From contig NZ_LMFB01000016.1 in assembly GCF_001426685.1 (NCBI RefSeq), forward strand, positions 133,898 to 197,897: 64,000 bases of DNA, written 5' to 3'. This DNA is from Rhizobium sp. Root483D2. GTDB taxonomy: Bacteria; Pseudomonadota; Alphaproteobacteria; Rhizobiales; Rhizobiaceae. Shown piece by piece: positions 11,747 to 15,387 of this stretch. Below the pieces are notes generated by a model. The model searched no databases. It had not been told where the DNA came from and saw only the letters and a program-made list of their open reading frames with translations. How positions within the stretch are numbered: the stretch's first letter is position 1; each line of letters starts with the position of its first letter. Position numbers and translations under genes: made by a program.

Positions 11747-12682
11747 TCACGTCCGCTGCGGGACTGCGGCACGGCACCACGCGGCAAAATCCTGCATGGC
11801 GCGGTCGCGCTCGATTTCGTTCAGGGTTTCGTGGCGCATGCTGGGATGGATCACCGCCGTCACCTGCTTCAGCCCGGCTTTTTGCATCTGCTGCGCCAAC
11901 CACGAGATTTCGCGGCCGCCATTGGTGGCCGGGTCCTGCCCGCCGCCGGTGAGGTGGATCGGCAGGTTTTTAGGCAGATGGCTGAGGCGCTCCGGCCTGG
12001 CACCATCGAAGGTCAGCCGGAACAGGTCGATCCAGAGCGAAACGCTGGCATCAAAACCGCAAAGCGGGTCGTCGATATATTTTGCAACCTCCACCGGGTC
12101 ATGCGACAGCCAGTCATAGTCCGTCTTGTGGTTGGGGATCGACTTCGCCCAAGCGCCGAAGGTGAGTTGCGACAGCAGTCCGCTCGGCACGTCGGAGCCT
12201 TTCAGTGCTTTCTCGATGGAAAGCACGATTTGTGCGGCACGCCCGGCCAGGCCCGGATTGAAATTCGAGTTCCAGACGGCCAGTACATCGTAAAGGCCGG
12301 GATCGGTTTCTGCCGCGTTGAGCGCGATCAGGCCGCCCATGGAATGGCCGAACAGGATGACGGGAAGGCCGGCATGGCGGCTGGCCGCCATGTCCCGCAT
12401 CGCCCTGACGTCGGCAATGACCTTGGCTGCCCCTTGCGACTGGGCATACCGGCCAAGGGGGGCGTCGGCGGCTTTGGTGAGGCCGTGGCCGCGATGATCG
12501 TGCGCGTAAACGTTGAAGCCGTTATTGGCCATGACTTCGGCGAAGCGGGCGTAACGGGCGGAATGTTCGGCCAGTCCGTGGCAGATGATCAGCACACCCA
12601 CGGGCTCTCCACCCGCTGGCCAATGGCGCCAGGCGAGGGCAGCTCCGCTTGGGGTTTGCAACGTTTCGACCTTGGCGAACAC
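11747..12682 (-). CDS. alpha/beta hydrolase, monoacylglycerol lipase / lysophospholipase type
   Basis: A 311-residue alpha/beta hydrolase (Hydrolase_4 / PldB-like). An oxyanion-loop segment CHGLAEHSARY lies near residue 34. The nucleophile elbow GHSMGG is near residue 115, and the conserved tail has the acid in TGGGQDPATNGG and a histidine in MRHETLNE. It probably cleaves a lipid ester, in the cytoplasm since no signal peptide is seen. The start is GTG at 12682 with GGGAGG nine bases upstream. First gene of a three-gene unit with a transporter and a ThDP enzyme, divergent from the RNase T2 gene. Confidence 0.82.
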   Translation of the reverse strand: MFAKVETLQTPSGAALAWRHWPAGGEPVGVLIICHGLAEHSARYARFAEVMANNGFNVYAHDHRGHGLTKAADAPLGRYAQSQGAAKVIADVRAMRDMAASRHAGLPVILFGHSMGGLIALNAAETDPGLYDVLAVWNSNFNPGLAGRAAQIVLSIEKALKGSDVPSGLLSQLTFGAWAKSIPNHKTDYDWLSHDPVEVAKYIDDPLCGFDASVSLWIDLFRLTFDGARPERLSHLPKNLPIHLTGGGQDPATNGGREISWLAQQMQKAGLKQVTAVIHPSMRHETLNEIERDRAMQDFAAWCRAAVPQRT

Positions 12683-12876
12683 CCCTTAGATCCTCCCAGG
12701 CGCAGTTCCGGCACTCACCGCTATCAACTTGATTTAACAGCCAAAGGCAACCGGCGCTTGGTGCTTGTTTGGTATCAGGTCAGAAAAGATTCGCGTGTAT
12801 GTCGATTCCAGGTTGCAATTTTCCCGTTTTAATCGCTAAATGATCTTGTTTTGTTCCTTTTTTGATGGAGATGGGC

Positions 12877-13644
12877 ATGCAAGGGAATGTGAGGGCTATT
12901 GTTGTATTGCTAGTGTTTTGCCTGCACGTGTTTGCGCTGATCGTGATCTCTGCCTCAGGGGCGCTCGCGCAGGAGATGGACGTGCGGGAAACGGGCAGGA
13001 CGGAGTATATTCTGGCCATAAGCTGGCAGCCGGGATTTTGCGAGACGCGGCCGGACCGCAAGGAATGTGCCGGGCAAGACGCCGGGCGGTATGACGCGAC
13101 GAATTTCTCCCTGCATGGCCTCTGGCCGGTGAAGAAGAGCTATTGCGGCGTCGCTGACGATATCAAGGCGCGCGACCGGACCGGCAATTGGCTGGACCTG
13201 CCGCAGCTGGCAATCGTGCAGGAGACGGCAGCCAAGCTGATGGTGGCGATGCCTGGAACGCAATCGGGGCTTGAGCGGCACCAATGGCTGCGCAGCGGCA
13301 CGTGCCATGGCGGCACGGCACAGGATTATTTTGCCACGCAGCTTCGTTTTCTTGATGAAATCAATGGCTCGGCGGTGCGGACCCTGTTTGCGGGGCGCAT
13401 CGGGCAGGATGTCACCGAAGGCGAGGTCAAGCAGGCCTTTGCCGCCAGTTTCGGCAAGGGTGCCGGCGACCGCGTCCGGATGCGGTGCGAACAGGTACGT
13501 GCACGGAGTGTCGTCACGGGGCTGACGATCGGTCTGTCGGGCGATGTTTCCGCCAATGCCGGGCTTTCGGATCTGATCCTTGCGGCCGGCAGTACCGATT
13601 TCAAATGCGCGAAAGGGGCGGTCGATCCGGCCGGCATTCAGTGA
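12877..13644 (+). CDS. exported ribonuclease T2 family protein with altered CAS-II motif
   Basis: A 255-residue protein with a hydrophobic signal at about 5-31 (ending GALA), so it is periplasmic. The first active-site motif is intact: FSLHGLWP with His80. The second reads H135-Q-W-L-R139-S140-GTC, where the family has Glu, Lys and the second catalytic His (E. coli RNase I keeps E-Y-A-K-H-G). So the general-acid/base partner residues are Q and S here. Cysteines for the fold remain. It may be a weak enzyme or a non-catalytic RNA binder. ATG 12877 is chosen for GGAG six bases upstream; ATG 12865 is possible. Confidence 0.82.
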   Translation: MQGNVRAIVVLLVFCLHVFALIVISASGALAQEMDVRETGRTEYILAISWQPGFCETRPDRKECAGQDAGRYDATNFSLHGLWPVKKSYCGVADDIKARDRTGNWLDLPQLAIVQETAAKLMVAMPGTQSGLERHQWLRSGTCHGGTAQDYFATQLRFLDEINGSAVRTLFAGRIGQDVTEGEVKQAFAASFGKGAGDRVRMRCEQVRARSVVTGLTIGLSGDVSANAGLSDLILAAGSTDFKCAKGAVDPAGIQ

Positions 13645-13737
13645 ATGAAGCGCTCTAAAACCGGTTTCTTCATTGCTCCGCCGGGATAATTCGCCTACAT
13701 AGCGGGCAAAATCCCATTCCGTCGGAGCAGTTTCTCT

Positions 13738-15387
13738 ATGGCACGTCAATTCATTTATCATATGTCCGGACTGAACAAGTCCTACGGCACCAAGAAGGTG
13801 CTGGAGAATGTCAATCTGTCGTTCTATCCGGACGCCAAGATCGGTATCCTCGGCCCGAACGGTGCGGGTAAATCGACCGTGCTGCGCATCATGGCCGGCC
13901 TCGACAAGGAATATACCGGCGAAGCCTGGGTCGCTCAGGGTGCGACCGTCGGCTATCTCGCGCAGGAACCACAGCTCGATCCGACCAAGACGGCGATGGA
14001 AAACGTCATGGAGGGCGTGGCCGACAAGACGGCGATCCTCGAGCGCTACAACGAACTGATGATGAACTATTCCGATGAGACGGCGGAAGAGGGCTCTAAG
14101 CTTCAGGACATTATCGACGGCCAGAACCTGTGGGATCTCGAAAGCCAGGTCGAAATGGCCATGGAGGCGCTGCGCTGCCCGCCCGGCGATGCGGATGTGA
14201 CCAGCCTGTCGGGTGGTGAACGCCGCCGTCTGGCTTTGTGCAAGCTTTTGCTCTCCAAGCCCGACCTGCTGCTCCTCGACGAACCGACCAACCATCTCGA
14301 TGCCGAAACCATCGGCTGGCTGGAAAACCATCTGCGCCAATATCCCGGCGCCGTGATGATGATCACCCACGATCGCTACTTCCTCGACAATGTCACCGGC
14401 TGGATCCTCGAACTCGACCGTGGCCGCAGCATTCCCTATGAGGGCAACTATTCGGCTTACCTGCTCGCCAAGGCCAAGCGCATGCAGCAGGAAAACCGCG
14501 AGGACGCGTCCCGCCAGAAGGCGATCAGCCGCGAACAGGAATGGATCGCCTCCAGCCCGAAGGCCCGCCAGTCGAAGTCGAAAGCCCGTATCAAGGCCTA
14601 TGACGAACTGGTGGAAGCAGCCGACAAGATGCGTCTGGGCGATGCGCAGATCATCATTCCGATCGGCGAGCGTCTCGGCCAGGTTGTTATCGAAGCCGAG
14701 AACATCACCAAGGGTTACGGCGACCGCGTGCTGATCGAAGACCTGTCGATCAAGCTGCCGCCGGGCGGCATCGTCGGTGTCATCGGCCCGAACGGCGCCG
14801 GCAAGACCACGCTGTTTCGCATGATCACCGGCCAGGAAAAGCCCGATAGCGGCACGTTCCGCGTCGGCGATTCCGTCAAGCTCGGTTATGTCGACCAGAG
14901 CCGCGATGCGCTCGATGGTAACAAGACCGTCTGGGAAGAGATTTCCGGCGGTGCCGAAGTCATCAAGCTCGGCAAGCTGGAGATGAACTCGCGTGCCTAT
15001 TGCGGCGCCTTCAACTTCAAGGGCACCGACCAGCAGCAGAAGGTCGGCAATCTCTCCGGCGGTCAGCGCAACCGCGTTCACTTGGCCAAGATGCTGAAGG
15101 CCGGCGGCAACGTGCTGCTGCTCGACGAACCGACCAACGACCTCGATACGGAAACGCTGGCGGCGCTGGAAATCGCGCTTGAAAACTTCGCCGGCTGCGC
15201 TGTCATCATCAGCCATGATCGCATGTTCCTCGACCGGTTGGCGACGCATATCCTCGCCTTCGAAGGCGATAGCCATGTGGAGTGGTTCGAAGGCAACTTC
15301 GAGGACTACGAGAAGGACAAGATCCGCCGCCTTGGCCCGGAATCGGTCAACCCAAGCCGCGTCAGCTACAAGCGCTTGACGCGCTAA
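13738..15387 (+). CDS. ettA: energy-dependent translational throttle protein EttA (ABC-F)
   Basis: A 549-residue soluble ABC-F ATPase with two nucleotide-binding domains and no membrane segment. Walker [10 protein letters not shown] at 39-47 and again near 350. The signatures are [11 protein letters not shown] and [11 protein letters not shown], and both Walker B regions read [11 protein letters not shown] or [11 protein letters not shown]. The basic linker between domains (about 235-300) is the P-site tRNA interaction motif of ABC-F proteins. EttA binds the ribosomal E site and gates the first elongation step according to ADP/ATP ratio. Monocistronic, with its own terminator. Confidence 0.95.

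Follow-up and report, generated by a model that had tools for sequence, protein, structure and literature searches.

The locus considered here, in a stretch of 64,000 nucleotides from Rhizobium sp. Root483D2 (the window; residue numbering is for the protein that it encodes), raises the question of whether an RNase T2 homologue with a substituted second active-site motif (CAS-II) is still a ribonuclease, a gene in decay or a protein kept for a different task. Catalysis by T2 enzymes is described as requiring both active-site histidines (PMC5598434, PMC4136927).

The protein is encoded by an uninterrupted frame of 255 residues at positions 12877–13644, open throughout as the earlier note had read it (Table 1). 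It matches the Pfam family PF00445 with 45.5 bits (E = 1.2e-11, cut-off 26) and E. coli RNase I in a phmmer sequence comparison (E = 2.2e-20), and an AF2 model of it (mean pLDDT 86.3) matches the fold of E. coli RNase I (2pqy) with a VIA-align Z of 22.7 over 206 aligned residues. By profile and by predicted fold alike, the protein is a member of the RNase T2 family by descent. In the model, CAS-I lies on the predicted strand 78–84 and CAS-II on the predicted helix 132–144; the two catalytic histidines of T2 enzymes are likewise carried by one strand and one helix (PMC4136927). A signal peptide, also claimed in the earlier note, is discernible by eye, and pLDDT is mostly low over residues 1–38 of the model. 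Six cysteines of the mature protein (55, 64, 90, 143, 204 and 244) are each conserved in at least 95% of the degenerate (n = 53) and of the canonical-type (n = 85) sequences compared below, Cys143 being the CAS-II cysteine that had been described as kept. A scan of positions 12600–13900 for promoters and terminators gave no signal exceeding those of shuffled sequences.

Table 1. Features of the T2 locus and its conserved neighbours in the window.
Feature	Positions	Strand	Basis or remark
Divergent alpha/beta hydrolase, conserved upstream neighbour	11747..12682	-	Product as annotated in S. meliloti Ak57 (L220) and R. leguminosarum (L221)
Catalytically degenerate RNase T2 homologue, 255 aa	12877..13644	+	Frame, PF00445, AF2, VIA-align
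Probable signal peptide, residues 1-31 (..SGALA/QE)	12877..12969	+	Read by eye
CAS-I FSLHGLWP, residues 77-84, His80 and Trp83 present	13105..13128	+	Sequence alignment
CAS-II RHQWLRSGTC, residues 134-143; Gln136/Arg139/Ser140 replace Glu/Lys/His	13276..13305	+	Alignment
Gly215	13519..13521	+	Gly in 52/52 readable degenerate sequences
ettA (energy-dependent translational throttle, ABC-F), conserved downstream neighbour	13738..15387	+	Named in L220 and L221

Aligned to E. coli RNase I by phmmer, the protein shows no gap across CAS-II (LERHQWLRSGTCHG over LERYEYAKHGACFG), and Gln136, Arg139 and Ser140 fall at the positions of the glutamate, the lysine and the catalytic histidine, respectively; the same alignment shows CAS-I intact, with His80 in place. 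Both observations had been made beforehand from the letters alone, and both are borne out. The protein thus has the first of the two catalytic histidines of an active T2 enzyme, and at the second motif has Ser140 in place of the other, together with Gln136. Chance or misalignment is ruled out, since the alignment across CAS-II is gapless and the substitution recurs across genera. None of the histidines in the 53 degenerate sequences reaches 95% conservation, so that His140 has no clade-wide substitute.

The further statement that other T2 enzymes keep both the glutamate and the histidine of CAS-II holds for RNase I but, as regards the glutamate, only in part for the second T2 genes of these bacteria. 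The window genome has such a paralogue (L001, 1273–2064, contig C44) with the canonical motif GHEWRKHGSC; a lipobox-like signal (ALAACSG) can be read by eye in L001. All 39 of the clade genomes searched, these being clade genomes outside the main window-genus set, carry a further T2 match away from the locus, which rules out that the cell has been left without any T2 gene. Readable paralogues from 30 of the 39, together with a further 20 of the window genus, the window genome's own L001 and an outsider (L217), give 52 sequences (51 from degenerate-clade genomes). The CAS-I histidine and the CAS-II Lys-His pair are present in all 52, and glutamine replaces the glutamate in 28. Glutamine at this position may thus be compatible with function, and because it occurs there with Lys-His intact the exchange of glutamate for glutamine is by itself weakly informative. 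The diagnostic change is the loss of the catalytic His140.

In a sample of the family, a T2 match (E 1e-20) was found in 166 of 394 genomes and 43 of 109 genera, and the degenerate kind in ten of the 43 (g1, g4, g12, g86, g95, g98, g112, g116, g133 and g135), a count based on at least one inspected copy per genus and not on all copies. The window genus, which is placed near Pararhizobium among named relatives, has a T2 match in 26 of 26 genomes examined. For comparison, 212 sequences of at least 185 residues (L001 and L217 excluded by hand) were thinned at <90% identity to 139, comprising the 53 degenerate sequences, the 85 canonical-type sequences and that of E. coli. A hand-chosen 87 of the 139, omitting 11 degenerate and 41 canonical sequences, were used for a tree with columns 80, 83, 135, 136, 139 and 140 blanked. 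The 42 degenerate sequences in this tree form a single clade (support 96/86) nested among canonical Rhizobiaceae sequences and taking in Pararhizobium-like, Sinorhizobium/Ensifer, Shinella-like and other genera. A number of the internal nodes remain open, and long terminal branches lead to L027, L181 and L185.

The fewest changes on the tree are two for His140, three for Glu136 and five for His80. Glu136 is present in none of the 42 clade members, His140 is missing in 40 and His80 was later lost in some. The reconstruction places the loss of Glu136 at the base of a single Rhizobiaceae clade, with His140 giving way to serine or asparagine (once to tyrosine) in nearly all members, and it appears that the cutting residues disappeared on a single occasion, in a common ancestor of about ten genera of rhizobia. 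Across the 53 degenerate sequences, residue 140 is Ser in 41, Asn in nine, His in two and Tyr in one, whereas it is His in 85 of 85 canonical-type sequences; residue 136 is Gln in 49, Thr in three and Val in one, compared with Glu in 83 and Gln in two. Position 139 is occupied by Arg, Gln, Met, Lys or Ala, and some members also lack His80. Thus, of the suggestion that Q-x-x-R-S marks a clade, the degenerate CAS-II is indeed clade-wide, as tree, synteny and dN/dS agree, but the exact motif is one of several forms. Within the clade, L163 and L175 (g95) have His140, kept or regained, together with Gln136 and Met139 (HQWLMHGTC). Outside it, changes are partial and His140 is always present: L153 has Asn80 and Gln136, L155 Met139, L187 Gln136 and L178 Tyr135, and L188 and L190 (g120) have valine for the CAS-II lysine (HEWWVHGTC) with the glutamate and histidine present. 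L153, from g125, could be an intermediate or a parallel loss, its His80 and Glu136 being gone and its His140 present.

The remainder of the pocket has been treated differently by different genera. The position of His135 is that of a substrate-binding residue in T2 enzymes. His80 is found in 44 and His135 in 45 of the 53 degenerate sequences, and parts of the His80/Trp83/His135 pocket are lost in Shinella-like, g135 and g12 sequences; on the sequence evidence, these three residues have been eroded afterwards in some genera of the clade. In the window genus and Sinorhizobium/Ensifer, all three are present in 76 of 76 intact loci (some genomes counted twice), so that the pocket has not simply been abandoned there. 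These loci are relied on here because a 29-sequence main set had been chosen by motif and is invariant at positions 80, 83, 135 and 136 by construction.

Residues outside the two motifs changed as well. Residue 215, a glycine throughout the degenerate sequences (Table 1), is Glu in 77 and Gly in eight of the 85 canonical-type sequences, and seven of these eight belong to genus g125 (L142, L145, L153, L155 and L169–L171, some of them with a basic pI), which the tree places beside the degenerate clade, a weakly supported position (87/50). Since Gly215 is found next to the clade, this change may have preceded the loss of the active site. Leu159 (53/53), Asp133 (52/53) and Arg201 (52/53) are near-fixed in the degenerate sequences, the window protein being of the exceptional type at residue 133, with Glu. 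The mean pI is 8.32 for the 53 degenerate sequences versus 6.59 for 42 close canonical relatives. However, the degenerate sequences range from 5.83 to 10.08, with the window protein at a hardly basic 7.77, and g125 sequences with His140 reach 9.0–9.3 (maximum 9.28); the shift in charge is therefore a trend and not a marker. A stepwise history can tentatively be drawn from these data, in which a periplasmic RNase would have turned once into a clade-wide non-catalytic protein binding RNA or another polyanion, possibly as a decoy, sensor or protector, through changes at Gly215, Glu136, His140 and, in some genera, His80, in that order. This history is possible but doubtful, and the weak support for the position of g125 slightly lowers its standing.

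Gene order at the locus is shared with that of canonical relatives. R. leguminosarum (L221) has the order DMT transporter, hydrolase, ribonuclease, ettA, ArsR/methyltransferase-type regulator and metF; S. meliloti Ak57 (L220) has the same neighbours, its T2 gene being unannotated and split between frames, and the open reading frames of the window match this order. With 'close' taken as less than 1000 bases for the hydrolase and less than 600 bases for ettA, both neighbours are close in 93 of 100 degenerate loci versus 53 of 109 canonical-type loci (some genomes counted twice). The misses among the degenerate loci concern ettA in six cases and the hydrolase in one, and many of the canonical-type misses have ettA farther away or come from more distant genera. 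Of the 42 canonical Rhizobium/Allorhizobium loci L096–L137, 29 have both the hydrolase and ettA close. As far as sequence and synteny can tell, the degenerate gene has a canonical T2 gene as its ancestor and has mostly stayed at the ancestral position.

Estimates of dN/dS are low in all five degenerate groups: 0.132 in the window genus, 0.072 in Sinorhizobium/Ensifer, 0.101 in the Shinella-like group (which includes L218, with its end in another frame), 0.090 in g95 and 0.092 in g135. Canonical Rhizobium orthologues give 0.087, and the canonical-type paralogue gives 0.165 in the window genus and 0.117 in Sinorhizobium/Ensifer. In the codon models, fixing ω at 1 (with κ fixed in the null) lowers the log-likelihood (lnL) by about 157 to 766 units. 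These estimates were made on random subsets of at most 16 sequences per group (16 of 20 for the window genus, 16 of 20 for its paralogue, 16 of 25 for Sinorhizobium/Ensifer and 16 of 35 for Rhizobium; the remaining groups, of 14, seven, six and five sequences, were used whole), excluding broken copies and the basal window-genus sequences L024, L025 and L028. The degenerate protein is therefore about as constrained as its active-looking relatives.

These values bear on slow decay, in which the canonical paralogue would cover the ribonuclease role and the degenerate copy would drift to loss. Broken copies exist that would fit it: the window genus has a copy with a stop in G013 (L023/L213), which matches that of Rhizobium sp. 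RCAM05350 (L095), and an 88-residue remnant in G003 (L034/L212); one stop interrupts the copy in G272, and the copies of S. meliloti Ak57 and Shinella sp. PSBB067 (L218) are split between frames. The degenerate protein is thus dispensable in some strains. As an account of the clade, however, decay is highly improbable given a dN/dS of 0.07–0.13 in five degenerate groups, the gain in likelihood over ω = 1, the conserved synteny and the fixation of Gly215 and Leu159 in the degenerate sequences. The earlier note's view that this is not simple decay finds support in the same dN/dS values, in the tree and in the synteny.

Selection that preserves the protein despite the lost cutting residues points to a second job without cutting, and the protein is probably a periplasmic pseudoenzyme with the RNase T2 fold, conserved under strong purifying selection. 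With the usual acid/base partner lost, no more than a trace of RNA cleavage, if any, would be left, and a non-catalytic job would be the reason why the protein is retained. The window's lineage still has His80, Trp83, His135 and several of the arginines, and there this job would most likely be the binding of RNA, oligonucleotides or another polyanion, for which the retained pocket and arginines could serve in the periplasm. Several observations count against this reading, namely the presence of His140 in L163 and L175, a pI that does not cleanly track the loss, the broken copies in some strains and the frequent retention of His80 and His135, as would be expected of a protein with some activity, residual or altered.

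A weak or altered ribonuclease, in which His80 with His135 or Arg139 would support slow or specialized cleavage, would agree with the complete retention of His80, Trp83 and His135 in the 76 intact loci and with the glutamine found at the glutamate position in 28 of the 52 paralogues with Lys-His intact. It is nevertheless unlikely, as the CAS-II histidine is described as essential for T2 activity (PMC5598434) and other genera of the clade also lack His80 or His135 while dN/dS is still low.

The main alternative form of a non-catalytic job would be to sense the state of the envelope, as has been proposed for RnaA of Acinetobacter. In a sensor of envelope or disulfide state of this type, the folding state or level of the protein, and not ligand binding, would be the signal. 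The six cysteines kept in the degenerate sequences are compatible with this, and there is a precedent in a predicted periplasmic T2 protein that is described as lacking the catalytic histidines and affecting BfmRS signalling (PMC10249906). However, these cysteines are kept equally in the canonical sequences and no sensor kinase is among the annotated neighbours in S. meliloti Ak57 and R. leguminosarum, making such a sensor rather improbable. The preferred reading is a periplasmic pseudoenzyme that probably only binds.

T2 orthologues, most of them from this one locus, can be arranged in a series that runs from active-looking to dead-looking, and the bacteria, Sinorhizobium meliloti among them, are tractable in the laboratory. 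A non-catalytic T2 role, suspected from plants, animals and Acinetobacter, thereby becomes directly testable, and the label 'ribonuclease' at the T2 locus is doubtful in about ten genera of the Rhizobiaceae.

Among known systems, E. coli RNase I (rna) shares the fold of the window protein (Z = 22.7 for 2pqy and 21.6 for 9iot; 206 residues, 31% identity) and its CAS-I, but has Glu, Lys and His in CAS-II where the window protein has Gln, Arg and Ser. The Rhizobium/Allorhizobium orthologues, such as that of R. leguminosarum annotated as a ribonuclease, are closer (about 45–55% identity, same neighbours) and differ in having RHEWxKHG(T/S)C with glutamate and histidine intact (L096–L137 and L221). 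The plant inactive T2 proteins (CalsepRRP, 1jy5, and a grass clade) have likewise lost a catalytic histidine and retained the fold (Z = 15.7 for 1jy5), but are eukaryotic paralogues, whereas the present protein is a bacterial orthologue. Loss of histidine in plant class I T2 proteins is described as going with a basic shift in pI, and six losses in class III as going with an acidic shift instead (PMC5598434). A fungal RNase-like effector has been proposed to be a ribosome-binding pseudoenzyme (PMC6464244).

A search of the open-access literature, which is weak evidence of absence, found no paper that, judged by its listing, deals with the degenerate protein in rhizobia. The bacterial protein that most invites comparison is A1S_3026 (RnaA) of A. 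baumannii. The CAS histidines are missing from it, and those who described it detected neither RNase activity in vitro (data not shown) nor an obvious motif for secretion (PMC3904860); a later paper reports a signal peptide, proposes a pseudoenzyme and ties it to DsbA and BfmRS (PMC10249906). RnaA and the window protein are both bacterial T2 homologues without the full catalytic histidine pair and with conserved cysteines and a signal peptide, the latter read by eye here. As described, RnaA lacks both CAS histidines and has eight cysteines, whereas the rhizobial protein has six mature cysteines and has mostly kept the CAS-I histidine; both catalytic histidines are absent in some clade members only, and the window protein is not one of these. 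Because the rhizobial clade arose inside the Rhizobiaceae, it is probably independent of RnaA. Bacterial pseudo-T2 proteins are thus already known from RnaA, and the rhizobial case looks like an independent and wider one.
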